Origin: Gracilaria domingensis
Lineage: Eukaryota > Rhodophyta > Florideophyceae > Gracilariales > Gracilariaceae
DNA: 27,624 nucleotides
Direction: 5' to 3'
Assembly: GCA_022539475.1 (NCBI GenBank)
Contig: VCMS01000461.1
Location: 23,942-51,565 of the forward strand
A program made the translations under genes and the position numbers. How positions within the stretch are numbered: the stretch's first letter is position 1; each line of letters starts with the position of its first letter. The notes beneath the pieces were generated by a model. The model was not told the DNA's origin and ran no database searches. It worked only from the letters and a program-made list of their open reading frames with translations. Positions 1 to 24,317 of the stretch are shown one piece after another.

Positions 1-306
1 CATCGTTTCTACAATTAAGAGATTCTTCGTAACCCTCGACGATTTGCTCTTATAGGGGGATAGCTAATACCCAGTCCTGCTCCGCAAATTATGCGGTCTA
101 TCGCTGTACTATGACGAATGCATATATACCAAGCAATACCAATATAGCAGCCCGAGAGCGACTTCTTGCTGTCTCACGATGATCGTCCTCTCTTTGTCAG
201 TATGAATATCCCCGGCATCTCCCCGTACTGCTCATACGTTGCTAAGGACCACCACTAGTGAGCATTCATCCCCATGTATCGACTGCAAGGTATATCCCCC
301 GTCTTC

Positions 307-483
307 CTACCTAATTTGCGACTCTTGTTTCCCACTACCGTCATGATTCACACTGGGTGGATCTTGACGGCTTTGCAGTCGTTCCTGAACATCAGCGTTC
401 GCAACTTCTGCTCCATTTCTCATTCGAAATACAAGCCATGCAGCGTTTAACTCGTCCTCATAACTACGTCCTGAGCGTGCCAT
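307..483 (-). pseudogene. Short coding-like frame, hypothetical, possibly part of a longer decayed gene
   Basis: An ATG at 483 opens 58 codons with ordinary amino-acid composition and a helical, charged start (residues 8-40 are rich in E, A, R and Q). It stops at TAG 307-309. The same frame continues to the window edge, broken by TGA at 232-234, TAG at 109-111 and TAG at 64-66, with plausible but unremarkable protein between. I do not recognise it. It lies on the same strand as the methyltransferase/SET module and could be a far remnant of that unit. The stop density of the extension is close to chance, so only the first 58 codons carry any weight. Confidence 0.25.
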
Positions 484-661
484 GCGCGAACTAGCTATTT
501 CGAAAATGGTGGGGTGGAGAACAACGGAGACGCTTGCCTTTTACCGCCCCGCCTTCCTCTCAAACTCTTAGCTCGAGACAACTGACGGATCCAAGCGTCT
601 AGAACGCGTGCCAACTGCATAATCCATGTGGCGCATCGACTGGGTCCTGTTCCCGCATTTC

Positions 662-1167
662 TCAAATCCTTTGTTCACATCGTAACCCAGAAATATCGCT
701 CCATAAAGACCCTGTAGGACCCGAAAAGTTCTCTAAACAGCAATGTACTTGCGGCATTGCTCTCTTCGCCACGGGATTTTTGAAAACGCGAAAAATGATA
801 TGTCCTCTTTTTTCGATGTTCTCCATGTGGAGGAGAATCTTCACACCCTTTTGCGCATCGTAACGGCAGGAAGCTGGTATTTTACACGGATTCCGATCCA
901 AGCTTGTTCCTATCCGATAGGTAGATTCGCTCCTCTTCCCTCTTATGTGATGTTGTCTATCACCAACCAGTCATTACCTTTAAAAGCCCGATAAAACAAC
1001 TCTCCTTCGCATGCGTTCCGAACCCCCTCCGCATCGCTCATAGGCCTTGCTTCAACCTCTGTCCGTAAGCACATGTCGCTGGTCAGCTGTCTGATGCATC
1101 TTCTTCCATCTTCATCTTCTGCCGTGTATTGTAGGTGCACTTTTACCAACCAGTGGTCCCTTGTCAT
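662..1167 (-). pseudogene. Decayed coding-like segment, unknown function
   Basis: Two minus-strand frames follow each other. One runs from ATG 1167 to a stop at 943 (74 codons) and contains an acidic EDEDGRR stretch followed by a mixed alpha/beta-looking sequence ending DWLVIDN. The other, in a different frame, runs from about 901 to 662 and contains the segment GVKILLHMENIEKRGHIIF. Their composition resembles real protein more than the pyrimidine-rich surroundings do, but I recognise no family. If they belong together, at least one frameshift and a stop separate them. Between 1170 and 2390 the plus strand is pyrimidine-rich and holds only short frames, so I make no call there. Confidence 0.22.
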
Positions 1168-2390
1168 GTGACCCGCAATTCAGGTTCGTCCTACGGTTAC
1201 TGTCCTTGCTTCACGCAAGGTTATGCACCGTACACGAAACCGAGTGGAGGAAAAGGCTTCATCTCCATCGGCGGACCTCCATTGACCAGTCGTGGATAAC
1301 AATCTCTTTCCCATCAAAACGACAGGAAAACCGGACTCAGTCTCAGGTCCGAGTGTCTCACTTCGATTCCCCCAGTTTCTCGCCGGGTGAACTCATCTCG
1401 AAGCAGAATTCCCTTGTCGTCCTCTTTCGCGTATGCGCTAATATGGTTTGCGTGCTTCATCCTTTATAGCTGGCTCGCTACCTCCTTAGATACGCGTACG
1501 TTCACACAATCTTCGTATCTTTCCTTTCTCGCTCTCCTAGTGGTGCGAATCACGCTCCCTTTGTGTGTCCTCCCTCAGTCACTCTCGGAAGTGATTGTAT
1601 TTAGCCAGAGATCTCCTTGTTCCCCAGATCAACCACCTTATCTCTATGTTGTCACGTCACTGCGCGTCTTCTAGTGGTATTCTTACGCTCTCTCAGACTT
1701 TTTCATTATACCTTCTGCGTTGTGACTATACAGAAAAGCGACGAATACCCCGCGCTAACAGAGTCTCCACACAGTCTTTGTCCAGCAATCAGCTCTGTTA
1801 GCGTGGCTTTACGCTTTCATCTTTTTCACCTTCTTGCGCTCATGATCTACTGCGGTGCAAAAGAGCACAGTAGGTAGAGCAGCGTAGGTAATTTGGTCCA
1901 GAGGCGACCTGCCACATCGAGTTACCGACCGCTCCTTTCGTTTTGCGCATTGTCTCTCTCTCTGGATAATCTGCCCTTGCGCGAGCCTCTCGTGCCAGTT
2001 TCCCCCTACGCACTCTCGCCAAAGGAAATTCCGAGGTCGAACCGCTCCTTCTTATTTGGTGAACCTTGTCTGACAGATGTGTACGACCGTAGCGCAAGAG
2101 GCCATCTGTATCTCCTCTAGACTTTCTCTCTCTTTCCTCTCTTGCACTCAGGCCGCTCCTCGCGCTGCTGAACCCGTCCTGATTATATGTGCGAATCGTC
2201 TTCCACATTCCAAGGAAATAGCTCTTCTTCGACCCGTTCGCGGCTCACGGTATAAGGAATGTATATTGGTGATCCCGAGACCTTCTTCCTCGTCACCTAG
2301 CACGATGCGGCAATGAAGGAATTCTTCCCCGATGTTTTTTTGATCTCCCTTCGCGATTTGTTTGCCGAGTGCACCTGAACATTTGGGCTG

Positions 2391-2946
2391 TTACATCATC
2401 GGCCTTTTCTTCACGGTCCCTACTGACTTTGCGTTGAAGGGAATCGTGTGTGATGATAGATAGACGCCCCATGCCCCTACCAGGTTGTAGATTTGCTCTT
2501 TCATTCTGTCCAACTCTTCTTCTAATGACATCTGTTCTCAAATTTCTTGTCCGTGTTCCTTTCGCTCTCGTACGTCTCTCGCCACCATTCTCTTCCATAT
2601 TCGCCTCATCGATTTATTCTTGGCACTTCCTCTGCAGCCATGTGTTGGGGAACCCCCCTCCCACTGAGCTGTGATGTGGTAACACTACTTTGCTCTCTGT
2701 CACTTCCGTTGGGGTCGTACTAACACCCAGCTTCGGTTTCGGTTTTGCCTTCGAAACCCGGAGTGCTGACTTAGAACCAGACTTCTTTCCAGTAAGCTCC
2801 ACACGGCGAGCTCGTCGTCGAGTACTTCTTCGGGTCGCGGCAGGCGGAGGGTTCTTGCGCTTAGCGACGCCAATACAATATCGCAGGATTCTTTGGGATC
2901 CCTTCGTCTCCCGGTCGTCTGCGTTGCTGAACCTTTGTGGAGCCAT
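2391..2946 (-). pseudogene. Decayed gene for a basic, coiled-coil protein
   Basis: ATG 2946 opens a lysine/arginine-rich segment (about residues 30-75, including TRRSTRRRARRVELTGKK and repeated KPKPK), typical of a nuclear or DNA-binding tail. A frame change near 2610-2625 leads into a helical segment (ATG 2609, 73 codons, stop TAA 2391-2393). That segment contains a heptad-like stretch, MSLEEELDRMKEQIYNLV, preceded by an in-frame TGA at 2538-2540. It lies downstream of and on the same strand as the SET gene, so it could be the third gene of the leftward module. A competing minus frame (3154-2861) overlaps its start in another phase. No family is recognised. The frameshift and stop mark it as broken. 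Confidence 0.35.
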
Positions 2947-3502
2947 TATTGCCCTTCAAAATCGCGTGAAAAGGAAGGATTATGTTCGGATTATAGATTG
3001 AGGAAACCGAAGCTTCTGGAGTTCTGCTCGTACTAAGAGTAGTGTGGGTTAAAAAAGCGGAAGGGGGCGAGCTTTTGAACCCTTGCAGCAGATGATGGAG
3101 ACCTTCAGTCGTTCTTGAGCCCTGAGTGAGCTGGTCCATTCCTGTTGCAGACATTCATACCAATTTTCCACATTTCCAATGGCCGTATTTTTCATTGGCT
3201 ATGTTCTATGTGCCAGGTCCGTCTGACGGGTCCCTTCATGATGAAGGTCGGCTGTTCCTTGGTCCAACCTCTGGGGTGTGAGGTGTTAATTCTGAGGTGT
3301 TGCTTTTGAGGTGGTAGCTCTGGCCGCTGTGGAGTATTCTTAGTAGCTCTTTGCTTAGCACGACAATGTGTCCTTGTGCCACGTTGTCGATTCCTGCAAC
3401 AATAGGTTTACTGGAATGATGAATGCATTCAATAAATGACGCAGTAGTTATGAAATACACTACAACAGTTTGTAATACGTCAAACTATAAAGCATGGGAG
3501 AA

Positions 3503-4318
3503 TTACAAATACCTCTCCCATGAACAGCTGGGTCCATAGTCTACGTACACTTCTTCTTGTTCATGAATATCCCTTGTAGCCATCACCAACAGTTGTCTAT
3601 AGCTTGCCAGTGTACCCAATGTGGTAGCTTGATGCTCGGAGGGGTGTCGAATAATAGTGTTTGGTAAGCGGCCTTGGTAAGGCTCCATCTCGGCCAAATC
3701 CTTCTCACCGTTCCCATCCCGGTACGAAGCATCATTGATGTAGCACGCTATACAGAAAGGAGCGGGTACTACCCAGGCAATTGCAGTATTGATTTCGGAA
3801 TCATACTGAGGAAGCGTGCTGTACATCTGCCCTTTCAGCTTCACTTCCATGCAATACCTCTTGAAACGAGAAACGGTGGCACCGAGCACTCCGCTTCCGT
3901 ATTCCATCTGTTTTGCATTGCGTCGGCTTATGTCATGATATACCAATGTCCCATAGAAGTACCCGACAACCTCTCCTTCCGAGAACGATCTACTATTGAA
4001 CACTCCATCTTCACTTATGGAGTGTTCGATGTTTGATTTCTTCCTGTACAACCATAAACCTGCTGCTTCAGTGGCGAGCAAAGTCTGTACATCCATCGTC
4101 TCCAATGCGCCTTGGAGATTCAGAGGCCACTCGTGCACCGGTTTCTCCTTTTGCTGAGCGATGAGACTCGGTTCTGCAAAACGTTGCGATGAAGGAATTG
4201 ATATGAAACGGGATACATTGGTATCGCGGGAATCCTTTCCGTGCGGTCCATATACGCGAGGTTCTTTGCTTCCCTTCCGGGGACTTTGTCTGTACTAAAT
4301 ACGAGGCTTGTACGACAT
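3503..4318 (-). pseudogene. SET-domain protein, probable lysine methyltransferase, with one premature TAG
   Basis: SET proteins transfer methyl groups from S-adenosylmethionine to lysine, usually on histones. The open part (211 codons, 4138-3503) shows the family order: GVFNSRSFSEGEVVGYFYG (N-terminal SET strands), then CYINDASYRDGN at the place of the usual NHS motif, then VMATRDIHEQEEVYVDYG followed by an aromatic residue (Trp), matching the C-terminal E-E-x-x-x-D-Y-G motif. The Asn-Asp in place of Asn-His is a deviation that could alter activity. The frame extends upstream to ATG 4318, only 2 nt after the methyltransferase stop, and is broken by a TAG at 4295-4297 that a single C-to-T change from CAG would explain. 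Without the extension, a GTG/CTG-type start would have to be assumed. No pre-SET or post-SET cysteine clusters are visible. The same frame stays open downstream (3460-3236), which is probably chance. Confidence 0.75.
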
Positions 4319-4320
4319 CA

Positions 4321-6637
4321 TTACTGACAGTTGACAGTTATTCTTGCGTTGAACTCGTTACCCCAAACCTTCCTCGCATACATCACTACAGCATTGTGTT
4401 CAGCATGAGCGAAGCACTGCTCATCCCTCTCAAATCCAATAAAGCGTCAGGGCTCTTCCATGCCCATGCACGCCAAGGCACCGGAAAATGTTCCACTATA
4501 GGGATCAACCACAACGTCCCCGGGATTTGAGAACCTGGCAATGAGTTCCTTTAGCAGTGCCCTCGGTTTCTATTCGGGGTGAACCTGAACCGAGTGTATT
4601 TTGGAACGCTTCTTTAGTCCCCAACGGAGTCCTTCACAAGCCTCCAGATGCGGAACCTGATCGATAATGGAGTAATGCCCGGGGTACTGCGTGAGAACGT
4701 AGTTGAAATTTTTGTAGTTCACCATCACCTTCTGCTCCTCGTACGCGTTTACATTCCGGACTTCGTGCACGGCATACTCGGTTGCAGAGAACAACGGTGT
4801 TGTGTTCTTTCCGGGGTTGTTCAAAGTGTGCGTACGAGAGGGAATGAATTGCATCGGTGTGGGGTCGACAAAGAACGAAGCACTTTGCCACCCCAGAACA
4901 TTTTCCGATTTGTGCCCAGGTAGAATCTCCTCCCAGTCCGCGAACTGTTCGATAGTACAGAAAGTTATAAAATGACGGCCAGGGCGAAGCATTGAGGCCA
5001 TCATTTCTGCAGTATTAACTATATCTTCGTCTAGAAGCTCATCATGCTCACTGTCACGTATACCATAAGATGGGTCCGTGAGTACGAGTTGAACATTGCT
5101 CTCTAGGGAATTATCGGAACGGTACAGTGTACCATGAGCCTCCACTAACTTTGCATAACCAATGCAATGCATAGAGAACTGTTGCTCCATGTTCTTTCTG
5201 ACCGCACCGAGAGCCTTCGTCGTCCTTACATCGGCAAAGTCGTGAGGTGGAAGAATACCATCAGGAAAATTAGAAAGGGGGTGCGCTCCATCGTCGTCAT
5301 CATCCGTGTCGTCTATGACAATGACATCCACCCGACCCGGGTCTGCACCGGATGTCTTACCGGATGTTTTACCCACCGCCCTAGCCATCGGTCTGGAGGA
5401 AATGGTTCTCTGTGCCGTAACCGTATCCTCAATCTTCACCGTGACCATGTTGCTTCCTTCCTGACGTCCTGACAGAGTGGCCTGGGATGGCTGCTGGGAA
5501 GGTCTCAGGTTTAGCTGGACAATAGCGGTACGAAGAGTAGCCAAATACTCATCCGAGAAAGCATCAAAGCGAGAAGGAAACCGTGTCTGAAGTTTGCTTC
5601 GAAAGCCTTCCAGCAGTTCCCACTTGGTAGTAGCGGACATTTTGTACAGAAATCCGTTTAAAACACCCTTGTTCAAATCGGACAGGAACTCTCTTGACAA
5701 ATCCCTTAGTTTGGTATCGATATCATCCGAAAGGGTGTGAACCCAAGGCACAGTGGCGTTGACCTCTGTGGTTGGCTTCACTTCGATCCCCAATGTTTTA
5801 CACACCGATGCTGGGCTGTATCCGGAAGAACGGGACTCAATTGCGCTGAAAGAAACCATCGCTTTCTTCATGGCAAGAAACGGTAACAGCATTTGTTCTG
5901 CGTCACGAAATCCAAGACTGGAAGCAAAAGAATCCCATCCTAGCATACCATTTGCACAGCATAACCCATCCGCCTTACGTGCGCTTGGTTTGACATGAAG
6001 AAACCATCAACAAACGGTATCTGTCTGGGAGAACCAGTTGCAGTCCTCGCCTTCTTCGCAACTGCGAGTCGCCTCTCCATATTGATACGCTTCACTAGAG
6101 ATAGATAGAGTAACTGCTGAAAACGAGTAGCAGGCTCAATCCGGAAGGTAGTTTTCTTCGTCTGCTTGGATCCGGGACCGTGCTCTTTGAATAAGTCATT
6201 CCAGAACACACGCCCCATAAAAGAATTCCCGCCATCCATATTCTTATCCAAACTCCATTCGAAAAGATTCCTCACCCGACGATCTTCACTCTAGTCATCC
6301 ACGTCAATGATACGGACATACTTGTTGACCCGACTTATGAACCTAACATCGGTACTTATCTTCACCAGCTCCTGCGGCGTATAGTTCGCGTACGTGCTAT
6401 TCGTAGCATCAGTGAGAAATTCCCCTGCACAAGCCAGACTGGCACGGTTTGCGACAGCGTACTCAACGAGAGCCGTGTATCCAACCTGACGAGGGGAACC
6501 AATGCCGCCTCGAGACGCCGCAAACGAGTCTCTCAGCTCGAGAAGTATGCTGAAAAAACGAACGACCGCGTCTCCATGATATCTTTCTCACCGGAGCTAG
6601 ACTGCGTAGATGCCATGGAAGATGCGGTAGTCGACAT
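4321..6637 (-). pseudogene. Beta-class DNA N6-adenine/N4-cytosine-type methyltransferase, disrupted
   Basis: The largest open part (5946-4570, 458 codons) contains, in order, a helical N-terminal half, an acidic linker (DDTDDDDDG, about residues 212-220), and the catalytic motif IV TDPSYG (D codon 5076-5074). The latter is the DPPY motif of DNA amino-methyltransferases. Downstream in the same frame come HPE[TAG]KP and then VVVDPYSGTFSGALAC, the SAM-binding motif I, ending in TAA 4321-4323. Motif IV before motif I is the permuted beta-class order seen in bacterial N6/N4 enzymes and in a few eukaryotic captures. Upstream coding continues to ATG 6637 through a frame change near 5950, a TAG at 6291-6293 and a frame change near 6570. 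Two further stops, TAG 4570-4572 (where HPxQKP is expected) and TGA 4447-4449, cut the SAM-binding end. DPSY instead of DPPY may be natural or another C-to-T change. The N-terminal ~220 residues match no family I know. Substrate specificity cannot be told. Confidence 0.8.
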
Positions 6638-6901
6638 CGCTCTGCTGTTAAGACCACAAAGGGGCCTGTTTCCGATGGGCGCCATGTAACTCTCGCAAGA
6701 ACTCGCGAAAGCGGAATAGACGGTGGCGATGAAACTCGCTGGAGTAGTTCTCGAAAGAGTAGTAGACGGCGGTGATGAAACATTATTCTAAATTCGTATT
6801 TGAGCGGCTGTTAGTCGTACGCAGGAGGGTGTGAACAGGGTTGCGAGAGCGGGTATAGTACAAAGACTTGTGTAAAATAACCTGGTAGTGACCCCCCTGG
6901 T

Positions 6902-6930
6902 GGCCGGATGCGACGTGTTCAGAGCGCGGT
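6902..6930. repeat. Half-site copy of the 7969 hairpin arm (direct repeat)
   Basis: The sequence from GGCCGGATGCGACGTGTTC to GCGGT repeats the left arm of the 7969-8026 hairpin about 1065 bp away, in direct orientation, with roughly two mismatches over 27 bases. The flank CCCCCCTGGTGGCCGG also resembles the reverse complement of the sequence right of the hairpin (ACCAGGGGGG and GGCCACC). The pair could therefore also be read as degenerate terminal inverted repeats. Confidence 0.7.
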
Positions 6931-7968
6931 ATGGAGACTGTCAAACCAGGTATCAAGCCACGTGTAGAGGGGGTTGTAGCGCGCATGGGGCAGATGAGAT
7001 ATGGTCCTATACGACTCAGAATCGTTGTTCTCCGCCACCGACCGGCTCCCCCTACATCATTATCTGCATCATCATCATAGCCGCCATCATAGGGCTGCAT
7101 ACAAATCTCCTGTACGCTCTCCGCCTCTGCTATCGCCGCTTGCGCTCCAACGCCGACGCGCACCCAAAGGGCGGTTGCATTGCGCGGAGGCAAGCCGTCC
7201 AGACGCCATCGTCATCGCAACATTCGACCACCGCATCCGTCGCACTCAACAACAAGAGCGTCCGGAACAACACGCAACTTAGGTCTTCCCCCTCCCCGTA
7301 CTGGTAATACCAATGTAGTAACGAGCATGACGTTTTACAGCGCTCACATTCCTCTTCGCCAGGCGTCTGTCGCGTCTTTCACGTAATGAAGACGTTCGTC
7401 GCAATGCGCACACACCCATAATAGCGCTGCTTTGACGACTGCAGCCGCCGTGGCCGCAGCTGCTGATCTCGGTATGCCTAATGACTGCGCTACACACCCA
7501 CCGCCTGGCTGGGTGTCCGTCTCAGGCGCTCAGTTTGATACAAGCTAGCGCATATTGCGTGGATTGCACTTTCTGGCTCACACCGTGTTGATGATGCAGC
7601 GCCAACACACTTCTTAGCACCCACAACAAGAGGAGAACACGTCAATGACACGATCTGTATAGTCGCCGCCCGCCCCTGAACGTCATGAGGGTCCTTCTGA
7701 GACTGCTTTCACGACAAACAGCCATGACCATAATACCCGTACAATTGCGATTGGTGCTGCCACCACTACCCTCATTCTCGAATGAATCTGCTCTTCGGCA
7801 TTCAAACTGAACATCGATTAAACCAAATCCGCGCGAAATTGTTTCTTGCGTCTGTGTAGGTACGTATAAACTGCGATGTGAAACGACAAATGTGCTCTGC
7901 GTAGCTCTACTCAGCTCTACGTTGTACCCTACAACCTGCTTTACCACCCCCGTAGGGTAGCGGGGTAG

Positions 7969-8026
7969 CCGGATGCGACATGTTCAGACCGCGGTCTGGA
8001 CTGCGGTCTGAACACGGCTCATCCGG
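7969..8026. repeat. Long imperfect palindrome / hairpin
   Basis: Arms 7969-7992 and 8003-8026 are reverse complements (CCGGATG then TGTTCAGACCGC on the left; GCGGTCTGAACA then CATCCGG on the right), with an unpaired 5-nt block inside each arm and a 10-nt spacer. Inside lies a further 14-bp palindrome, CAGACCGCGGTCTG, at 7985-7998, so the GCGGTCTG box occurs three times. Its position between divergent genes suggests a regulatory or recombinase-binding site, or the end of a small inverted-repeat element. That is inference. Confidence 0.8.
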
Positions 8027-8348
8027 CCACCACAGGAGGGTACCAGGGGGGAACCGTGGGGGTTGATCATGCTGTCTGGTATGCATCTAGCCTTCTACAC
8101 CGTCTCTAACCGCCTATACCACTCTTTTAAAGTGATGCGAATGTTCATGCGAGCATTTCCGCGTGCTGCACTACAAATCTACGACACGAAGGGGTGCGAC
8201 ACTTCAACCGACAACAAAGCGTGTACCGTGTTCAAACCGAGCGGGTGCGCCGTTTGCTGACTTGATCAGAGCATTATACGATTATCGCTTTGTTCTGCAT
8301 TCAAGCTTTATAGGTATCTGAAGAAGCTAAATTCAAACAAGCTATATA

Positions 8349-9522
8349 ATGCAGCCAAGAGGATTGGGGAACCAGCAGATGAGGCGCTCCCGAAAGCCGC
8401 GGAAAGTTCGCAACCCCATGGCGCCGCATCTTCGAAGTGCGAAGAAGACAAAAGAAGGAGGAAAGAAGAGTAGTGAGGAAGCACAGAATCCAGAGACGAC
8501 TATGAGCTCTAACCCGGGAAAAGCGAAACCCGCACCGGGGCACAAAGTGACGCTTCTTATCGCGGGGAATAGAGGGGACAAGGTCCCAATTGGCACGGCT
8601 GATGTGGTGGCCATCAAGTCTGCCGGCGACGGCAAAGACTATCGAAGAAAATGCATGGTCACACACTGGAAGGAAGCCAGAAGAGGATATAGTCCGTATA
8701 TGGCGAGCTGATGTATGGAAGGAGCTCTATACACCGTACCCGTATCCCTTTAATTGTACGGATGAGGACTCTATTCCGAACACCGTTGCGGACTTAAACA
8801 AGATGGGTTTCTATGCTTGGGACTTGAACTTCATGGCTTCGGGTGAGACCGTTCAGAACACCACGCCGCAGGTGGCCAGTAAGAAATCAGGGCATACCAA
8901 TGCGGCGTCCACGACAGGTGGTAAACGAGTGCATTTGGCGCAAACACCGAAACCTCCGCGTACACCGAGCGGAAAGCGGTTGCCACCTCAGGTAGCCCAA
9001 AACAAGACACCAGGCAAACAACAGAAGAACAAAGAGGGGAAGGAAGTACCGCCCCCAGCGCCTGGGCCTGTGCTTAAAACTCCATCTAAGCAAGACCAGG
9101 GTGGTACAAAGGTTTGAACTGCACAATTGACCACAACTCCAGAGAGTGCGGTCTCTGCATTACGGAAGCAACCAGCGATGAATGTGCAGTCTGAGTCGTC
9201 CAGAAAAAGCGCTGCTGAAGCGATTGCAATGGCTGGGAGTCGCAGTGGAGCTAGGATGGAAGTTGTGGATGTGGATGAAGTGGATGATGATGACGTTGTC
9301 TTGGTGAAGGAGAGCGTGGCTGGAAACGTCAATGAACCATTCGACGAAGGTGATGAATTACCTTCGGATGACGTGCATATAAGTCTGGCGTCGCTCAAGT
9401 TCACCCTGGACCATTATGAGTACGAGTCCGTGAAGGTCGACATCGACCTAATCGAAAGCCGGGACGCAACTGTGAGAGGGTCAGTTCGGGAGCATGTTGT
9501 AGCTCTGAAGGCGGAGATTTGA
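8349..9522 (+). pseudogene. N-terminal part of the rightward element gene: basic head and acidic linker
   Basis: ATG 8349 opens a very basic segment (repeated RK/KK clusters, about residues 10-60). A frame change near 8650-8690 leads into a folded-looking segment with RIWRADVWKELYTPYPYPF and then a Lys/Pro/Thr-rich linker. The same frame continues past an in-frame TGA at 9115-9117 into an acidic stretch (VVDVDEVDDDDVVLV) and to a second TGA at 9520-9522. Basic-then-acidic low-complexity tails suit a chromatin-associated protein. No family is recognised. It is probably one gene with the following two entries, because the phase is kept across the TGA codons and all lie on one strand without promoter-sized gaps. 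Separate small genes are the alternative. Confidence 0.45.
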
Positions 9523-11081
9523 AGGAAAGGGTTTCTTCAGGCCCTTAGAACGATGAGTGTTGCTATTTTGATCACGGATAAGTCTGAGAAGGAGATGATG
9601 GAGGGCAATCGCGTGAAAGTTACGTGAATTCTCAAAAATGGGGCTCATCGTCTTGTGGTACTCAAGGAACTATGTGAGGAGGATGCAAAGATAAGGAAAC
9701 TAAGTAAAGAACCTACTTTTTCCTTATGGACGAGAAAGGATGGACAAAAGATGAAAACGAGGGAGCTTCTGAGTCTGGGTAATGCTTTGAACGATGAACT
9801 GAAGCAGGCCCGACTTATGAACGTCACCGACAAGGTTCATCCCATTGTATCCTTTATAACCGCGATGGTTGAAAAGGAGAAGAAAGTGTTGAACAACATG
9901 ACAAAGAACGCGGTAGCGGGTGCCTTATTTGTATGCGGAATCATAGGTCAATACCATATCAGGCATCTATCGAGGTTTGCGGAGATGGGTTTGAAGGTGG
10001 CTAAGAGTCCTCGATTGCTGAAGCATTTAGAAAGTGTGTGTCGGGAGCATAATGAAATTGGTATTATATGTATCTCCAGTGATGAGTTCTTTTCTATGGA
10101 TGAGGACACAACTGATTTCGCCCAGGACGCCCTGGCAGCATATTTTGCGAGAAGACGAGAGTCCAAACTGAAGGGCCGCTTTGAAGATATACGAAAGTAT
10201 TTCTTTATATGCTGCCGGTCCCTAAATGAGCTGGCCGTTGGAGTATCGAAAAGAAAGAGACTGCTCTGAAGGAAGTGTATGAGATGCAGATTGAAGTCAC
10301 TATGTTTGAGGAACTCAGCCTTCGTGAGTATCTTGCCACACAGGCCGCACGCGTGGAAACTGCAGCGACAAAGAAGCTTTGGGCCGGAAAGATATCGAGA
10401 AGGGTGGCTTATGCTCGTGAAAAGCTTAAGAAGTTCATCGGGGTGGATTTCAATTCGACTGTGGGGCCGTCTGCTGCGGCGGGAGGGAGAAAAACGACCA
10501 CGTCTACGACCCAAGTGACTAAACCGGATATTCAGGCGTCGCGTTCTAAAGTTGGTAGCGAAGAATGCGGGGAAGACGTTCAGGAAGTGGTAAGCGACAT
10601 GGTTTTAGTAGAGTGCGGGGTTGAGAATGAGCACCAGAAGATGTCGTCGACGAAGGAAGATGATGAGCGACAACAACCCAGGGCTCAGAAGAAGGCGAAA
10701 GTAAGCGAACTGTCCCAAGATGAAACATTCGTCATCAATCATCTGCGTAGGCTCGGAGGGAAAGGGGTTAGAAGCTTACTCAAAGCTCATCAAATCTCCT
10801 TCAGCAGCGACACGGACTCTGATTCAGCGCCGAATGTTGAGACGCGAGGAGACGACACGGATCTTTTCGACGACACAGTCCCGGAAATTCTACCCCCGGG
10901 GCTGAAGAAAGCAGACGAAGGACCTTACGAGGGGGGGGGATTCGTGGTTGAAATTGTTGAAAGCAGTTCCTACCAAGTGGCCGGCTGGAGTGGACGGGAT
11001 GAAGTCGGTATATCCGTGGATGGATGCGATACATCTCCGGAAGGAGCAATGAGGCCATTTGCTCGAGCCGAAGGACTTTAA
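9523..11081 (+). pseudogene. Middle part of the rightward element gene: helical region of unknown function
   Basis: After TGA 9520-9522 the same phase continues, is cut again by a TGA at 9625-9627, and is then open to TGA 10267-10269. This stretch is lysine/glutamate-rich and helical, with a hydrophobic stretch, AVAGALFVCGIIGQYHI. A single-base loss near 10260 moves the frame, and about 268 codons follow (10275-11081). They hold a helical LREYLATQAARVETAATKK segment, a Ser/Thr- and Glu-rich linker, a KKAKVSEL patch and an acidic stretch (SSDTDSDSAPN). The frame changes again at about 11060-11080 into the dioxygenase domain. I recognise no family in this part. It may be a linker and partner-binding region. 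Confidence 0.4.
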
Positions 11082-12050
11082 AGAAGTACATCATGCTGTG
11101 TTTTGGCATACTGCGTATCAGGGTCAGAAGCTTCTCAACGAGGCGGTAGGAGAGGGGGAGGTTGATGATGGGAACATATGGGCAGAGGCAGTGAAGAACG
11201 ACTCCGCCGCGTATATATATTTTGTGAACAAGAAGGCTGAGCTTCAGGAGAGAGGTTTCTGTATTTTGGAAGGCTTTGCTTGTGACAACGACCTTTTGAA
11301 GATGGCTGAAAGTCCCAGCAAGCTCATCGATGGGGATGTAAGCGTCAAGTTATTGGACTTCTTCAAAAAAAGTTTCGAAGAAGCCCCATACCTCAGGGTA
11401 CCAGAGAATCGAACTACATGGATTTCTATAATCAAGGCGGACAATGGGAGGTATATGAAGACGAGAAGAGGTATAGTGGACGAGCTGGAGAAAAGACCGG
11501 AGACGCATTTGCTTGTCAAGAAGAGGGCTATGTTAGATGCTCGGCTTGGTCAGATATGTACGGCGTTGGGGCTACAAGACAACAAGCAACCAAATGAGAA
11601 AATGTATGCACCGAAGACTGCAGGGAGGATCTTATGCACCGGTGTGGCTTGCCAGCGACGCAACTACATACCGACTTCGAGACCTTGACAAACGAAGACA
11701 AGCTAGAAGGGAAGAACCCGGCGTACTTTGTGATGGTCTCCGGAACTGTGTCGTTTACACTTTGGATGTGTGAAGGATCCCACAGTTTCTCTGCTGTAAC
11801 AGCAAAGGCATTTGAACGGTTGGCACGAGGAATGGTTGTGAGAAAGTTCTTTGTCCTACCTTTGTCTGTGTCGATTGGGAGGGGGAATGTATTTCATGCC
11901 GGTGCGGGCACTAAAGATGGAAAATTTCCGGAAAACCCACTCCTTCGCTACCATATGTATATGGTACCAGAGAAGTACAGTTTGCCGGATGCAGTTCATC
12001 TGAATAACCATTTTCGACCGACTTTTGTAGAAGAAGACGACCTCATGTGA
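11059..12050 (+). pseudogene. Fe(II)/2-oxoglutarate dioxygenase-like domain, one frameshift
   Basis: Enzymes of this fold use Fe(II) and 2-oxoglutarate to hydroxylate proteins, nucleic acids or small molecules. The N-terminal part (11059 to about 11650) includes LQERGFCILEGFACD, the usual opening of the fold. A one-base loss near 11645-11655 shifts the frame into LPATQLHTDFETL. There the H-x-D iron ligands are His 11667-11669 and Asp 11673-11675. The distal iron ligand is the His of NVFHAGAG (11895-11897), and the 2-oxoglutarate-binding Arg is that of LRYHMYMVP (11946-11948). About 76 residues separate the two histidines, within the family range. The HAGA...R-x-H pattern is common in algal and protist oxygenases, but the substrate cannot be deduced. 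A TGA at 12048-12050 ends the domain. The frame then runs through an acidic tail with a TAG at 12090-12092 to TGA 12246-12248. TET/JBP- or AlkB-like action on DNA is a possibility, not shown. Confidence 0.68.
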
Positions 12051-12248
12051 ATGAAGGAAAACACAGGTGGTCCTGCGGTGGACATAGAATAGGTGGAGGA
12101 TGGGGATGACGAGGACAAAGAGGATGAGTTGATGGTCGAGGAAGGTGACAGCGACCAAGAAGACGAGAACTATGAACCGCAGGGGATGGAGGAGGGGACA
12201 GTGAATGGAAAGGAGAACTCAACGAGCCATGAATTTATGAATTTATGA
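12051..12248 (+). pseudogene. Acidic tail in frame with the dioxygenase
   Basis: This stretch follows the TGA at 12048-12050 in the same phase and is dominated by Asp/Glu (VEDGDDEDKEDELMVEEGD). It holds one in-frame TAG (12090-12092) and ends at TGA 12246-12248. It is either the original C-terminal tail of the dioxygenase gene, cut off by a CGA-to-TGA-type change, or an untranslated 3' region. The acidic composition supports the first reading. Sequence after 12250 becomes AT-rich and looks like a 3' flank. Confidence 0.4.
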
Positions 12249-12464
12249 TATTGCAGTTGACGAGTGGATATCTGGAGATGACGTCACCATGTTTTGTTGT
12301 TGTTGAAGATATTGATTGTTGTTTTGCGTAAAACCTATGTCACAAGTGCTATATATATGTTCTTATGTTTCCACAAAGGGACTTCATTAAGAAAGAGTTA
12401 CATGTTTGTTCTTTATCTATGTACTACTAATAATTATCGTAGCTCTAAATTATTTCTCCAATAG

Positions 12465-13131
12465 ATGACGAGTCTGGGCTCTAGGATGCTCTCCGAGTGC
12501 ACACAAGTACCTCTTGAGGTTGACCCGTGGTTTGTGCTGGACGATACCCGCACACACAAGAAATGCAACGAATAAGGTGTTTGTAAGAAGGGGGGGATGC
12601 CTCTGTACGTACGAAAGGCTGATGGTTCTAGCGACTAAGAAAGCGTGTGGGCGAAGAATACTGGTACCACTCTGTTCAAAAACATTCTGATAGAGAGCAA
12701 TACATCATGGAAAAAGAGAGCCTTTCTGAAGGAGTGTGGGACACAACGGATGTAGAGACAGAGCCTTTCCCATCGAGTTCCTACGCGGTGCGAGAGCGGT
12801 ACAATGTTGTTAAAGGTGTTGCCTGTAGACTAGAAGATAGAGAGTGCGTTCATGACGATAGTGAATAGTTCGAATAGAAATCCACCTGGAAAAAACTCTA
12901 TAGAGGCTGGTCTTACAGAATATATAAGATTGGAGGGGGATGGACGGAGTTGATAGGTGACGAAGATGGAGAGATTGAGAGCGAAAAGGCCACCGACCGC
13001 TATACCCAAGAATTTTTTTCCTCAATATGGAGGAGGTGCTCGTCATGTGAGAAGGAATTATCGGTCCGAGAGCTAGGGTACCGTATCATGCGGCATGCAG
13101 GGAAAAGGCGAGGTCGAAGAGAATAATGTGT
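12465..13131 (+). pseudogene. Broken plus-strand gene of unknown function
   Basis: ATG 12465 opens 36 codons (MLSECTQVPLEVDPWFVLDD region) to TAA 12573-12575. Coding-like sequence resumes in another frame at about 12647 and stays in phase for about 160 codons, interrupted by TAG 12866-12868 and a second TAG two codons later. The last part contains STWKKLYRGWSYRIYKIGGG, then a Cys pair (RRCSSCEKEL), and ends in a basic KRRGRRE tail at about 13130. The interruptions fit CAG-to-TAG changes. No domain is recognised. It converges on, and slightly overlaps, the minus-strand frame at 13682-13086. Confidence 0.35.
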
Positions 13132-13682
13132 AACATGGTTTCCAGAATGCTATAGAAAATGGTGAAATCCAGCTGAGCATGGCAAGAAGAGCGCTTGAAT
13201 AGAAACGCTTGGGCCAAGACGGGCTTGATGATACCGTAAAGCGCGCCTCTGGCTACCGTTAACAATGAAGCAAATAACACCATTGAAGGTGGTGAAAGCA
13301 CGCTGAGAGGATTCCGACAGTAGAATCTTGACTGATAGATATAATTCGAAAGATCTGGTAGAGTTCGAATAGCGTGAGTAAAAGGTGGGTGCTCCAGAAT
13401 ACTTTCGTGACGGGTTGTGTCATGTAGTATTTCATAGAACTGATTGAGCTCATTCTGCAGTGCGGGAGTGATGAGAGTTTGCACCCCACGAATGTGAGCT
13501 TCTTCAGCATCGAGGTCGTACTGTAACTGAAGGCAATTGTTGAAAGTGATGTACGTTGCATGTGGGAAAGCATCCAGCTGGATACGTGCAGAACGCAGTC
13601 GATTGTTTAGCGGGATTTCCCGTACTTGGTGTGTATTGCGAAAGACCATTGCGGAACAGTTTCGTTTTCGAATTCGTACCAA
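13086..13682 (-). CDS. Hypothetical protein, 198 residues, intact frame
   Basis: This frame is uninterrupted for 198 codons, one of the few such in the left half. An internal ATG lies 11 codons after the nominal TTG-type start, so the protein may be 187 residues. The first two thirds are mixed and soluble, with Asn/Gln/Leu-rich helices (LDAEEAHIRG, LQNELNQFYEIL). The last third is hydrophobic (GALYGIIKPVLAQAFLF and FTIFYSILETMLHIILF), possibly one or two membrane segments. No family is recognised. The plus strand opposite also shows coding-like patches between stops, so this could be an antisense shadow of a decayed plus-strand gene, at least in its C-terminal third. Confidence 0.35.
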   Translation of the reverse strand: MVRIRKRNCSAMVFRNTHQVREIPLNNRLRSARIQLDAFPHATYITFNNCLQLQYDLDAEEAHIRGVQTLITPALQNELNQFYEILHDTTRHESILEHPPFTHAIRTLPDLSNYIYQSRFYCRNPLSVLSPPSMVLFASLLTVARGALYGIIKPVLAQAFLFKRSSCHAQLDFTIFYSILETMLHIILFDLAFSLHAA

Positions 13683-14270
13683 AGGAGAGTAAAGGGGGCT
13701 TTGGATGGCTGTAGAGATGCGCTATATTTATTCGTTAGAACGTGGACTGTTTGTGAGTTACAATAAATAGGAAAACAGCTCTACTATTACGCTTCTTTAA
13801 AAGTCGAGGCTACTAACATGTAGAGAACATGGTTTTCATAACGATTGATTAGACTGGTTGCTTTTATACTATACTATGAAACGAGATAGTGATATAAGTA
13901 AGGCATAAGATACATGGATGATGAAAAATTGGTAACATGAAGAGGGAGACACGGTTGAAAACTCGGGAATTGGGCTAGAATTTATGAAATTATTTTTGAG
14001 AAACAACTTGTTTCACAGGGATAAGAACGGGTGCTACGCAGTGGTAGTGAATGCGCGTACATACATGACAGGGTTTTCGCGCCGTGATAAGTTCACGGAG
14101 CGCCTACGCACGAATAGAATTTCGTCTTCTCCCGTTTCGGATACCTTCCTTTTCGGTCCCTTCCGTTTCCGTTCCCCTCCGTTCCCGTTCCCGTTCCCGT
14201 TCCCGTTCCCTCCCTTCCCGTTTCCCTTCCCTCCTTCCTGCTATACGTTCCCGCTCATTGAAATCTGATC
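13683..14270. other. Intergenic stretch, AT-moderate, ending in a pyrimidine-rich tract
   Basis: I see no supportable gene here. It is AT-leaning to about 14000. From about 14140 it turns into a C/T-rich tract dominated by TTCCG and GTTCCC words directly upstream of ATG 14271. The tract could be a promoter/5' leader element or simple-sequence expansion. Confidence 0.4.
14181..14210 (+). repeat. GTTCCC hexanucleotide microsatellite (5 perfect copies)
   Basis: Five exact GTTCCC units lie inside a longer degenerate TTCCG/TTCCC tract (about 14150-14250), about 60 bp before ATG 14271. Such tracts vary in length by slippage. Position upstream of a start codon suggests a possible effect on the leader or promoter. 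Confidence 0.9.
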
Positions 14271-15096
14271 ATGAGCGGCAACTCTCATTCGAACGTGAAG
14301 TGGTCGTGGGATCCCAGCGATGGGGAAAGGTCGCATAAGATGATTAAGAGAATTTTTGCGGAGAAAGATGAAGAGGAGGACAAGGATGAGCTGGACTGGT
14401 GGTCGATGGCGATATTGGCGTGCGCAGGGGCGATGGGACCCGCATTGGTGAAGACGTGCGTCCACAGACGAAGAAGGTCACAGGATTTGTTGCTAGGGAG
14501 CTAAGGGGATTGAAGGATGGGCAAAACCAGTTGATGGGTCGAGTGCAGGGGCTGGAGGGGAAGCTGAAGGAACTCAGTGAGAAGCGGGAGGATGTACGTC
14601 AAGTCAGAGGTACTCCAGTGACTCCTGCGCTGAGGATTTTGAACGGTGTCGGGGTCGTGGTCGGGGTCGATGGGTCTAGTGTGGATGCAGATGAGGATAC
14701 GAGGGACTTTGTGCCGGCTACGGAGAGTTTGGGTGAGGATGAAACGGTTGCGGGTAATGAAGGAAAGAAGAGGGGCCGAAAGAGGAAGTACGGGGAGAAG
14801 AGGCCAATCGTGGCCAGGAAGCTAGAGGTGGAGGAGGATGAAGTGAGGCCGAAGCTTGCAAATGAGAAGAAGAAGAAGATGGAGAAAAAGAAGAAGACTA
14901 GGGTTGGGTTCAGGTGTGTTCCGAAGCCGGTGTGGAAGAGAACCAGCGTTGTGGGATATCAGGAGCGTGGAGCGGGGAGGATGTGGAGGAAGGGGAAAAG
15001 GAGGAGGAACGGGGCGATGATGTGGCGAAAGGGTTTGGGGCGTTGTTTTTCGCAGATGCGGAGATAGAGGAGGCTGGTGGCGGTGGACTGTTCTAA
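14271..15096 (+). pseudogene. Basic/coiled-coil nuclear-type protein gene with two frameshifts
   Basis: ATG 14271 opens a frame with an acidic stretch (AEKDEEEDKDELDWW) and a short hydrophobic run (MAILACAGAMGPALV). A one-base loss near 14460 shifts it into a heptad-like helix (LRGLKDGQNQLMGRVQGLEG) and then a nuclear-localisation or AT-hook-like patch (KKRGRKRKYGEKRP, about 14765-14810). Next comes a lysine run (KKKKMEKKKKTR). A second one-base loss at about 14920-14990 leads into an acidic C-terminus ending GALFFADAEIEEAGGGGLF before TAA 15094-15096. All three parts are needed for a sensible protein of about 275 residues, so I treat the shifts as damage or sequence error. No family is recognised. 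A DNA- or chromatin-binding role is inferred from the basic patch only. Confidence 0.45.
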
Positions 15097-18000
15097 GTAG
15101 GATGCAACTTGAAGTGGTATGGGGGTGGCGAGATGCATGCGCGCGGTTCCATAAGGTGAATGTTGTACTAGGTATTCGTAGTAATGATGACTATTCTAGA
15201 GTATTTGCAGCAAAATAGCGAACGTAAATATGGCGGCACAGGTGGACATCACAAGATGTCCTCACACGACAACAAATAATACGTCTGATACTTTCATTTC
15301 GTGAACATATACTAGCAGACGTGGCGTACGTCAACTGTTCTGCATTGAATGGAGAAAAAGCCCTAGTACATGAAAGCGTAGCATACAAAAAATTGAAATT
15401 AATTGCTTGCACATAGCCCTATGTGGTGCAAACCCAGGACGGGTGAAACACGCACAGGATGTCCGAAGTCCTGCTCCTTAGGGGATGGTAACTCGCTGGA
15501 CGAGCTTCTGTTGACACCGGGGACCTGGGTGTAAGACCAGTAGTGTACTGAGGAAACCCTACAGAGGTGAATGCAGAAAGTCCAATATCAGGACAATCAC
15601 CAGCCAAGAACGGTGTAGAAGCGAGGAATACCCGAAAAGGGGTGAGCCAGACACTTCGGAAGGAGGCGTAGCCCAAGAAATAAGGGACAGAGAGATACGT
15701 CCAAAGTGGAGACGCGGGCCGTGCACACGCAGGCAACAGGCCCGACGTCGGGGAAAAGACACGAAAAGAAACAAGAAAGAACCCAATACTGGGGCGGAGA
15801 TCTGTCCTGCAATCAGGAAGTAATAGAAATAGTAGAAGTCAATACGACACGGTATATACAGATTCCTTAGGCGTCCCAAGGAGAGTGCGCGTACTTATAC
15901 CTCTTGAGATGACCCTCTGGGCGGAGTAGTACACCGGCAAGGGCAGTAGCGCCTAGAGCCCACACTCAAGATGAGTCTCGAGTGCCCTCTGATCAGAGTG
16001 GCAGTTCTCAAGGAGAGGCTTGGTTACTTTACCATCAGGTGGTGTTTAGCCGCCTCTGCACCTCTAAGTACCCCAGGTGCATAGTCGGTTGACTGATTAC
16101 GATAGTGCACACCCGTACGGGTGGTACACGTACGCAACGCCACTGTCAGGGTGCAGAAAATAAAGACAAACTACAATATTCCCCAAAATACCCCATTGGT
16201 GCACTAGCCATCCACCTCCATGTGTCCACGCCCGACCAGGGCCCTTGGCATATGCACGCCCCTATAGGGGTGCTACGTAAGATTAAAGTAACCAACGGTT
16301 GAAGACTTCCATAGGGATGCATCTCATAATGTCAAGTGCCACGTGCACGGGCGCATCGCTCATGTATGAAGAGCTTCTTCGTCAAACACCCTCAGAATCG
16401 GGTTTGCTCCACATTGCTTAGTAAATGTTAATTCTAAATTAATGAAAATAAACTAATTAGTCCTTGCAATGCACGCGCATGCAAGCTCCACGTGTTGCAG
16501 TATACACACGTGCTGAGAGACCCGTGAGGTCACCACTCGGTCGGGGAGAGCCCCCGTTGATCGGGCGTGCTATACTACACTCAGATCTTGTGCTTAACGG
16601 ATAAGCGGACTGTTCCCACTGTTTGAACTGCTTTAAGGAAAAAAACGATGATGCGCCATAGTCCCCATTTCAGTAACGAAATCGGAACTTGCTGGATGCA
16701 AATGCAGCGGTAACCTCACCAAAGTGCACTTTTTCGGGTCTGGTACGCCCTAATCTTCAAAGTGAGAGCAACAAATAAAATCCGGAAGCTTCGAACATGC
16801 AAGTCGTCCACGTTCGTCTTCGTAATAATTATTCTTGCCAACCTTACATATCCAGTTTGAAGTTCTCTTCTGTGGGTTTGAAGCTTTGAGGAGGGCCGCG
16901 AGCTGATGTATACTTGATGCGAAGATAATGTGGCTTCAAAAATAGGAGAATGACTTTGGAGCGAAGAAAAAGATTTTGTGAAGCCAAAAGTTTTTCATAA
17001 GCATATATGCCATTCCTGCGACCAAAATAAAAGCTTTCCTTGGAGGTTCGAATCTTATAGTTATGTAGCTCAAGGAATTGACCAAGAATAATATTTTGTT
17101 AATTATGCCTTTTGAAAGAAGACCTAATATCAATGTTATAACAAACATAAGATTCTCTGTGTTGAAAAGGTTTTGAGAAGGCAGATTCAGAAATAAAAGG
17201 AAACGTGCCAACCTAATTGCCAGTCAAAGCTTTGGTAGAACTTGTGAGACCTGAGTTCTAAATTCCGTCGTGGACCTTTCGTCAAAACGCTACAATGGTT
17301 GAGAAACATTTTATACTAGAGAATGAGAATGTTGTTCTCGATACTTGTACTCGCTCTCCAAATAGGTAGACGGTACGACTTTGAGGCTGCTTTTGGCCTT
17401 TTTAAGTAGAGGGAGCTTTTGACCATTGTATTCTCTGTAACATTCTATTTGTCAAGACTATTGAATGAGGATAACTACGACTCAGCCGTCGGGATGTGAC
17501 TTGGTGGCACATTTACCGACTTGTACTGCTTGAGCGTGATGTGTTAAGATATCTTATAGTGCCCTTACACTCTATCAAAGAGAAATTCTTACAAGTTTTG
17601 ACTCTGAAAGCTTACAGTCTCTGTTATCCGCAATTTGACTTCATTCATTGAGAAGAAAGAAGAAAAACGGCCACTTTTTCGATGAATTGGATTTCGGACA
17701 AAACGAAGATTTGAGAGATGGTGAATATACTATCAGATCCGAATCGAACAATGCCTAACCTTTATCAAAATTGTAACGCGATGAACGAGTTCTTTTTTAG
17801 TAGTTTTTAGTACAATCACAGAACTGTTTTTCAGGCTATAGTTTTATGTTTTCTGTATTGAAACTTGCAACGGTCTGTTGTAAACTTGGTATCAATTAAA
17901 AACAGTAGAAAGGTCTCATAAAAAAAGTGTGATTTTTAAATGAGCGTTTTGCCTTTCAAAAACTTTTAACTTTTTGTGTGAAATCATACAGAACGGAAAA

Positions 18001-21694: not shown

Positions 21695-22908
21695 TTAGTT
21701 GTGGAGAATTGTTGGACAACGCGAGAATGTAGTATGGGCAGTGCGTAGATGTTTTTTAACAGAATCGATACTACCAAGGGTATGAAGAACGGCAATATTG
21801 TTGTGGGTCTGATGGTGTTGGAGATCAAATTGCAAGGCAGGTTTGTAGCACTCAAGCGCCTTGTGCATATTTCCAAGTTCCTTTTGCACGACTTCTAGAT
21901 TGTTATGAGCCTCAGTTAGACGTGGGTTAAATTGGTCAGCAAGATTTTACGGGAGGAGAGCACGTTCCAACTTTCCAGTTTCGGCGTAGAGAACACCAAG
22001 GTCGTAGTGAACATCGGAAACCAGGGCTGGAGGGCAAGAACGCGCTTAGAGATCTTTTTTGCTAGCTGAGTATCAACAGTTTCGCCTATTAGAACCCTTG
22101 GCGGAGAGAGTGAGAGCGAGATTGCTATGGCCAGTTTGTAGTTAGAATTGCAGGAAGAACCCTTCTCGGAGGGGCGCATGGAAAGATCGGGGGCTCCAGC
22201 GTTTCATTGCAGCACGCCGAGATTGCAACATGCTTCGACGTGCGAGGAGTTGTGCTGCAGCTACTCCTTGTTGTACATTCGGGCCTTTCCAGTGTGCGAG
22301 GTGTCTGCACGTGCGATGGCCGTATTGTAAATTTCCTTCGGATACATCTGGAGGGCCTCGAAGTAGTGCTGGACTTCGTCAGCAAGAAGGTTAGCCATCT
22401 TCAAGAGCACGTCCTCATCGGTGAGCAGTGCGGCCAACTGCAACGCCAGCGACGTTTCACCGCACCAGGTCAAAGCCGTGATGGCTCGTCTAACGAGGCG
22501 CAACGCCTCTGGCAGCTGCACGAGGTTGAAGGACAAAATGGTGGCCAGTGCCTACAGCGCGGACACCGAGTCGGGCGCGATGCGCGGCGCGCGCCACAGC
22601 GTCTCCTCGGCGTCGGCAACGGCACGAGCTGCACCGACGCCAGCTGACCAAGCAGAGGCGCATAATGCGCGTGATGGGACTGCAGAACGGACAGCGCGGT
22701 GGTGACAGCGTGCTCCACGGCGGGATGGCGGCCGCACGCGTACAGGAAGGCGGCCTGCGAGAGCAGGGCGTCGATGAACGACGCGGGGGGCGCTTGGGGG
22801 GGCGGCGGCGTCGACGCCGGGCGCGGCAGGGCGAGGCGGCAAAGCGGTCATGGCGTGGGTGCAACCAGCGGGCGCGGTGGTGAGCAGGTGGCGCGTGGCC
22901 CGCGCCAT
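21695..22908 (-). pseudogene. SPINDLY/OGT-like TPR region, truncated and frameshifted
   Basis: SPINDLY and O-GlcNAc transferases (GT41) attach fucose or GlcNAc to Ser/Thr of nuclear and cytosolic proteins through an N-terminal TPR superhelix and a C-terminal catalytic domain. On the minus strand, 34-residue TPR units can be read across frame changes: NSSHVEACCNLGVL, then LALQPWF, then VLYAETGKLE, then KELGNMHKALECYK and HHQTHNNIAVLHTLG. Their order and the spacer after NSNYKLAIA match the SPINDLY pattern. Upstream are weaker helices such as ASFIDALLSQAAFLYACG and LPEALRLVRRAITALTW. Breaks include a TAG at 22552-22554, a TGA near 22225 and several one-base shifts. The frame ends at TAA 21695-21697, and no GT41 catalytic domain follows, so the gene is truncated at its 3' end. 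The first ATG (22908) lies inside the 187-bp repeat array. The 5' half is GC-rich, the 3' half AT-moderate. Confidence 0.7.
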
Positions 22909-23494
22909 TGACGAGGGCGCGCGCGTTTAAAGCGCAATGCTCCGGCGAAGCAGGGCGTCGATGAACGGCGCGGGGCGCGCTTGGGGGGGCGGCGGCGGCC
23001 ACGCGGGGCGCGGTGGGGCGAGGCGGCAAAGCGGTCATGGCGTGGGTGCAACCAGCGGGCGCGGTGGTGAGCAGGTGGCGCGTGGCCCGCGCCATTGACG
23101 AGGGCGCGCGCGTTTAAAGCGCAATGCTCCGGCGAAGCAGGGCGTCGATGAACGGCGCGGGGCGCGCTTGGGGGGGCGGCGGCGGCCACGCGGGGCGCGG
23201 TGGGGCGAGGCGGCAAAGCGGTCATGACGTGGGTGCAACCAGCGGGCGCGGTGGTGAGCAGGTGGCGCGTGGCCCGCGCCATTGACGAGGGCGCGCGCGT
23301 TTAAAGCGCAATGCTCCGGCGAAGCAGGGCGTCGATGAACGGCGCGGGGCGCGCTTGGGGGGGCGGCGGCGGCCACGCGGGGCGCGGTGGGGCGAGGCGG
23401 CAAAGCGGTCATGGCGTGGGCGCGACCAGTGGGCGCGGCGTTGAGCAGGTGGCGCGTGGCGCGCGCCATTGACGTGAGCGCGCGCGTTTAAAGC
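22764..23494 (-). repeat. 187-bp tandem array carrying the 5' end of the TPR gene
   Basis: Units at 22907-23093, 23094-23280 and 23281-23467 are nearly identical. A diverged partial unit lies before them (about 22764-22906) and a partial one after (23468 to about 23494). On the minus strand each unit has CGCTTTAAACGCGCGCG about 20-25 bp before an ATG that opens MARATRHLL...HAMTALPPRP. That is the same N-terminus as the TPR gene reads at 22908. The unit length is not a multiple of three, so the array cannot encode a repeated domain. It looks like amplification of a core-promoter-plus-start-codon segment. Copies differ mainly at the upstream-most unit (for example CGACCAGTGGGCGCG instead of CAACCAGCGGGCGCG), with a few single changes elsewhere. 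Confidence 0.9.
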
Positions 23495-24311: not shown

Positions 24312-24317
24312 GGCGCA

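Follow-up and report, generated by a model that had tools for sequence, protein, structure and literature searches.

A divergent methyltransferase-SET and putative dioxygenase gene pair as probable cargo of a decayed Plavaka-type transposon in Gracilaria domingensis

We analyzed a stretch of 27,624 nucleotides from the red alga Gracilaria domingensis (assembly GCA_022539475.1, contig VCMS01000461.1, positions 23,942 to 51,565 of the forward strand; hereafter the window, to which positions refer), in which a decayed repeat holds two divergent genes, one for a DNA amino-methyltransferase-SET fusion and the other for a putative 2-oxoglutarate dioxygenase. This cassette is probably the cargo of a cut-and-paste transposon of the Plavaka type, with enzymes that would keep the element expressed and mobile despite silencing. 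Copies across the genome share the gene layout and the inverted ends, carry transposase and cargo genes together, and display purifying selection on the cargo between subfamilies. A preliminary description of the region, made from its sequence, had proposed the remnant of a large mobile or virus-like element with its own methylation-related enzymes; terminal inverted repeats (TIRs), a Plavaka transposase and the many copies bear out the mobile part of that proposal.

Transposase, inverted ends and copies

Homology between copies continues to the left of window base 1. In copy C157, an open frame left of the cargo matched the Plavaka family (PF18759, E = 2.4e-19, 70.1 bits against a cut-off of 26.3). 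It carries, in two adjoining frames, the motifs C(2)C (PCHRC) and H(3)H (FHLLDH), and its catalytic D and E were identified by eye. The presence of C(2)C and H(3-4)H between the second D and the last E is given as a Plavaka criterion by Kojima (2025; PMC12730594), where fungal Plavaka transposons, some with a TET/JBP dioxygenase, are described. An initial reading by eye as a KDZ transposase was ruled out, the Pfam match being to Plavaka. Genome-wide, there were at least 110 Plavaka matches, and seven of the B type (see below) lie in 1,110-codon open frames. The preliminary description had found no transposase, which is correct for the window, but related copies have one just beyond it. The transposase of the window copy itself is invisible because the assembly to the left of the window consists of N in the 2,000 bases fetched.

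The left ends of C157 and C351 begin with CGTCTGTGTTCTCG... and are the inverted repeat of the right end. The first 27 bases of C157 agree with the most frequent base at each position among right ends from other copies (a 27-bp TIR), and the element termini read CGTCTG..CAGACG. A 25-base probe of this end, allowing at most one mismatch, found 79 genomic sites, and the reversed control found 0. At the right side, all 20 copies fetched extend about 84 bases beyond window position 15,422 and stop at the inverted repeat, with differing flanks. Inside the end, at its first 25 positions, the commonest base occurred in 17-20 of these 20 copies; at the 8 positions outside, it occurred in at most 12. 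These ends had been chosen for matching up to there and were located by a motif allowing 4 mismatches, which favors the inside. The terminal repeats that had been suggested as a check on mobility are present as inverted ends in related copies, just outside the stretch that the window shows. Facing inverted ends were also seen at C21:144077-154357 (10.3 kb) and C184:25867-34724 (8.9 kb), and pairs this close together point to shortened copies that are perhaps non-autonomous. A chromodomain frame (L099:185-559, PF00385, E = 4.5e-12), situated some 0.8 kb beyond the left end of C157, may be the tail of an integrase with a chromodomain, from a retroelement.

The assembly searched comprises 77,892,253 bases in 680 contigs. 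Protein searches returned at least 99 matches to the methyltransferase, at least 152 to the SET domain, and at least 150 each to the middle and the later region of the rightward gene. A genome search with PF01555 returned at least 150 methyltransferase matches, about 120 of those listed having no stop in the matched stretch. Subfamily A, to which the window copy belongs, has about 72-100% protein identity to the window in its better matches and is mostly decayed; subfamily B has about 50-70% identity and many intact copies; and a far family, at 26-42% identity, has many equal-score copies, several with 1,055-codon open frames.

The gene layout was compared between loci using 99 methyltransferase matches, the listed SET matches, 110 Plavaka matches and, for the rightward regions, the subfamily A and B matches only. 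The 99 methyltransferase matches merge into 84 loci: a same-strand SET domain lies beside 78, the divergent rightward gene is present at 60, a Plavaka transposase lies beyond the SET domain at 40, and all three partners are found together at 21. It should be noted that these counts are lower bounds, some of the misses being matches outside those listed or contig ends. A wrong-strand control with the same distance windows gave 0 for SET, 1 for the divergent gene and 1 for Plavaka. In the far family, PF01555 occupies the divergent position at 20 of 40 middle-region and 11 of 50 later-region matches (same strand, only 1 and 0), and the methyltransferase stands just upstream on the same strand at 13 of 24 SET matches (opposite strand, 0). 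The transposase, the methyltransferase-SET gene and the rightward gene have been inherited together across copies. According to the preliminary description, its proposal would fall if the three genes never occurred together elsewhere or each mapped to unrelated single-copy host loci; many loci share their order and divergent arrangement (60/84 with the divergent gene), and this test does not refute it.

The cargo genes

The methyltransferase-SET gene runs leftward (minus strand) and is in pieces in the window copy. Its C-terminal part is the SET domain (3506-4294; PF00856, E = 4.7e-7, 30.6 bits, cut-off 22.4), which frame breaks have split off from the remaining gene. The S-adenosylmethionine-binding half (4402-4614), with motif I PYSGTF and two internal stops, was matched in the whole-genome profile search (PF01555 model positions 150-219, 47.4 bits, cut-off 26.7). 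The open frame at 4573-6006 holds the catalytic half with motif IV and the region preceding it, as assigned by a motif survey and by an intact homolog matching PF01555; searched by itself in Pfam, this frame gave no PF01555 match. A further N-terminal piece in another frame (5940-6290) resembles, by eye, RRVRDLFTWSLEK...GPGSKQTKRTTFRI of an intact copy. Motif IV reads DPSY in the window and DPPY in intact copies. Since it comes before motif I, the methyltransferase is permuted, as the preliminary description had recognized.

In the B copy C12, a single 1,118-codon open frame holds both PF01555 (E = 1.3e-14) and PF00856 (E = 2.4e-6), and therefore the region has two divergent genes and not three. 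The three-gene cassette proposed earlier is thus correct in its divergent layout and in its strands (SET and methyltransferase on the minus strand, the rightward protein on the plus strand) but not in its number of genes. The intact copy has the motifs DPPY and LYSGTF of a beta-type permuted amino-methyltransferase (PF01555). In PDB, the nearest solved structures were the bacterial adenine methyltransferases DpnA, MboIIA and CcrM, and the nearest named relatives of the domain are phage and bacterial methyltransferases. Relatives of the fusion were found outside this genome: P0001 (1,060 amino acids, 36% identical, SET at 20.5 bits against the cut-off of 22.4), P0002 (874 amino acids, 36% over 59%, PF01555 and SET both above cut-off) and P0003 (955 amino acids, 26%, PF01555 only). 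The domains of the fusion enzyme predict two methylation targets, an exocyclic amino group in DNA and a protein lysine.

The rightward gene (plus strand, about 8331 to 12050) is likewise in pieces in the window. In the B copy C140, it is one 1,326-codon open frame, encoding about 1,280 amino acids from the first likely Met. In the window, the start of the gene (8331-8711, MQPRGLGNQQMRRSRK...) was recognized by eye from its similarity to MDMRGLGKGQMRRSRK in the intact copy, and the N-terminal pieces (8551-9519, as 8551-9114 and 9118-9519) match the intact 1,283-amino-acid reading by BLASTP at 38% and 67%. A central conserved region (9628-10266, 67% to the intact copy, at least 150 genome matches) is followed by a basic/acidic middle (10230-11078, 41%) and by the region leading into the putative dioxygenase domain (11053-11685, 66%, at least 150 genome matches). 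The putative 2-oxoglutarate dioxygenase core lies at 11598-12047 (LHTDF ... VFHAGAGTKDGK), placed by its motif and by BLASTP to the intact copy. A ParB-like middle domain, considered by eye from LIDGAHR, was not backed by any profile in Pfam, NCBIfam or PHROGs and is not claimed.

The dioxygenase pattern consists of LHTDF ... VFHAGA and an R or K at the ninth residue past the His. Its first part, LHTDF, was present in 15 of 15 distinct copies examined, drawn from the window, L097 and 20 overlapping loci; the distal His together with R or K at +9 was present in 11 of 11 copies reaching that part. An Arg 17 residues past the distal His is found in A copies and is replaced by Leu in the intact B copy L097. 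As the residue at +9 is kept while the Arg at +17 is lost in L097, the likely 2-oxoglutarate contact is the +9 residue. We call the rightward protein a putative dioxygenase, from its motif only. For the HxD...H...R dioxygenase proposed in the preliminary description, the motif was confirmed and a Pfam profile match was not obtained: five pieces of the protein gave none at E up to 10, and no TET/JBP domain was matched in Pfam (E up to 1; pieces up to 10) or NCBIfam. Nothing below E = 0.05 was found in PHROGs, a protein search gave no match among 7,986 candidates scored, and tblastn of the C-terminal domain in phages found none. A profile of the rightward protein had a single match among 7,992 candidates, hypothetical protein FGB62_18g20 [Gracilaria domingensis].

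Between the two genes, the spacer contains the hairpin reported in the preliminary description, at 7964-8031, with 33-nt arms (7964-7996 and 7999-8031) that are 85% complementary. In some other copies, matches to the hairpin also occur at a different location. The spacer, hairpin included, may serve as the natural shared promoter region of both cargo genes.

Comparison of subfamilies A and B gave low ratios of nonsynonymous to synonymous substitution (dN/dS): 0.161 for SET (221 codons), 0.127 (813 codons) and 0.166 (757 codons) for the rightward gene, 0.065 for its middle region (212 codons) and 0.154 for the stretch that precedes and enters the putative oxygenase (203 codons), with synonymous distances of 1.4 and above to be read as rough. 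For the methyltransferase half, synonymous change is saturated (proportions of differing sites pS 0.775 and pN 0.236) and the ratio was left out, as was the pair of the window and C157, with 30 codons aligned. Two A copies gave a dN/dS of 0.554. These codon comparisons show purifying selection between subfamilies and indicate that selection kept the cargo while they diverged.

The window copy and its surroundings

The decayed element of subfamily A fills positions 1-15421 of the window, homology to other copies reaching from base 1 up to 15,422. The extent proposed earlier (2391-12248) thus lies inside the element and falls short of its full length. Both cargo genes are broken by frame changes and stops. 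In copy C278, identity to the window is 97.8-99.7% across the four stretches fetched, but only 77%, with gaps, over window 329-2800. Its left TIR is at 52,349 and window base 1 corresponds to C278:57,484, a distance of about 5,135 bases. By combining different copies, the left side from C278 and the right side from others, the full-length element would be about 20 kb long.

Position 15,422 was considered as the right terminus, as 29 of 45 matches stop there. This was rejected: the 20 fetched copies extend past it to the TIR, and therefore 15,422 is a cut made by a second repeat. That repeat (TGTGGTGCAAACCC..., 15422-16413), recognized by comparing the junction between copies and by a 94% match to C4:515521-516513, takes the place of the last ~84 bp of the element, including the right TIR. 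The junction region at window 15,422 recurs on contigs C345 and C425. C4 was also considered as an empty site and rejected, since it is another copy of the second repeat.

Further right, an ABCF-like ATPase gene (25374-27004, minus strand; best PDB match ABCF1, 5zxd) has a one-base frame change near 26,300 and is either a pseudogene or an assembly error. Because this conserved gene is also frame-split, some of the broken frames in the window could be assembly errors. Much of the decay is nevertheless probably real, as many other A copies also have decayed motifs and stops. The remaining features observed were a 187-bp GC-rich unit in four tandem copies, 96% matching (22757-23497), a short-chain dehydrogenase frame (23784-24839, plus strand; PF13561, E = 1e-28) and, overlapping it, a Sel1-repeat frame (23955-24323, minus strand; E = 5e-5, under the cut-off).

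Possible functions of the cargo and comparison with known systems

Cut-and-paste movement is established for relatives in the EnSpm/CACTA group, to which Plavaka is related, and the transposase would accordingly excise the element at its inverted ends and reinsert it. The fusion enzyme may methylate the DNA of the element (adenine N6 or cytosine N4), its SET part may place a lysine methyl mark on nearby histones, and the oxygenase may remove or oxidize a silencing methyl mark. The simplest use would be for the element to control its own chromatin, putting its own mark on and taking the host mark off, so that the enzymes together would maintain its expression and mobility despite the silencing of repeats by the host. 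That this amounts to a complete write-and-erase kit, with a bifunctional writer for DNA and histones and a new dioxygenase family unrelated by profile to TET/JBP, sustaining at least 100 copies, is a bolder version that we put forward tentatively and with more doubt than belief.

Several observations weigh against this explanation. The oxygenase has no profile match in Pfam, NCBIfam or PDB, and predicted structures reached an unusably low predicted local distance difference test score (pLDDT), 29 for the rightward protein and 30 for its C-terminal domain alone. Of the three fusion relatives from elsewhere, P0003 lacks a SET match and P0001 has one below the cut-off. The transposase region of the window copy falls in an assembly gap, and none of the copies was seen complete from one end to the other. 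A target-site duplication of 2-3 bp is characteristic of Plavaka elements; in C157, where both flanks were read, the bases beyond the left and right ends do not match, though the ends lie 37.7 kb apart and may belong to separate insertions; in C351, the right end was not found at the expected place. Subfamily A, including the window copy, is largely decayed, containing stops and variants of motif IV such as DPSY, DPHY and NPPY, and two B copies (dS 0.008, dN 0.007, ratio 0.95) are recent, with no constraint visible. Finally, the termini CGTCTG..CAGACG differ from the TGT..ACA or CATCA..TGATG given for fungal Plavaka (PMC12730594), and for this reason we did not file the element as PlavakaA or PlavakaB.

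The decayed copies and the unconstrained pair of B copies would also fit genes caught by chance, with no role in the life of the transposon, and DNA transposons often pick up host fragments. Such passengers would hardly be expected to yield between-subfamily dN/dS values of 0.065-0.166, the same layout in three subfamilies, or the many B and far-family copies whose open frames are long, and we regard this explanation as very improbable. Even less credible is an endogenous viral or Maverick-like element. The large size and the phage and bacterial relatives of the methyltransferase domain could point that way, and the preliminary description had used the term virus-like; however, its transposase is of the Plavaka type and its inverted ends are 27 bp long, the frames scanned yielded no gene for a capsid, a polymerase or packaging, and a scan of viral contigs gave 19 loci that match only within the methyltransferase domain.

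Other explanations accept the transposon and differ in what the cargo does. The enzymes could serve as an attack, methylating or demethylating host chromatin or rival transposons broadly, with an indirect benefit to the element. The same genes and the same selection pattern fit this idea, and it is speculated in PMC12730594 that some TET/JBP enzymes of fungal transposons oxidize 5-methylcytosine without target specificity. Retention by the element in three subfamilies suits a benefit at the level of the element at least equally well, and we judge the attack explanation unlikely. The cargo could also license transposition, the transposase reading a DNA mark, the methyltransferase timing excision after replication, and the SET domain and oxygenase tuning the process. 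Dam sites control some bacterial transposons, and the spacing between methyltransferase and transposase is steady here (7.0-7.4 kb in 25 of the 40 loci having both); licensing leaves the SET fusion unexplained, however, and although it may overlap with control of the element's own chromatin, we consider it less likely still than attack. Control by the element of its own chromatin is thus the explanation that we favor.

Transposons are usually the targets of DNA and histone methylation. The one described here seems to carry its own writers, fused in one protein, and a candidate eraser. If the enzymes work, they would constitute a natural eukaryotic source of N6-methyladenine or N4-methylcytosine and a system for asking whether an element manages its own silencing. 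A DNA adenine-type methyltransferase on a mobile element has a parallel in the Dam-like domain of DIRS retrotransposons, which use a tyrosine recombinase and are not known to have a SET fusion.

With fungal Plavaka, as described in PMC12730594, the element has in common the C(2)C and H(3-4)H motifs of its transposase domain, inverted ends and dioxygenase cargo (a candidate here); it differs in its red algal host and in its cargo, an amino-methyltransferase-SET fusion and an oxygenase-like protein with no TET/JBP profile match. SET genes on DNA transposons are named in the same paper for HarbingerS and MuDR of Phytophthora; these belong to other transposase superfamilies, and the passages naming them do not mention an amino-methyltransferase fusion. 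A permuted eukaryotic PF01555 enzyme fused to a chromatin-related domain is also found in N4CMT of bdelloid rotifers, which is described as a host gene with a chromodomain and with transposons among its targets (PMC8885841), whereas here the fusion is to a SET domain and is carried by the transposon itself. In the Plavaka giant repeats of Amoebidium, some cargo has hits only in very distant eukaryotes, including dinoflagellates or red algae; the cargo there is described as repetitive, intron-poor genes, many of which encode tyrosine recombinases, and the main text uses none of the terms "SET domain", "adenine" and "dioxygenase" (PMC11244446). Among the titles and abstract openings searched, which exclude most subscription journals and whose silence is not proof of absence, no description of this Plavaka cargo was found. 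Cargo-bearing Plavaka elements, described from fungi and Amoebidium (PMC12730594, PMC11244446), are hereby extended to a red alga.

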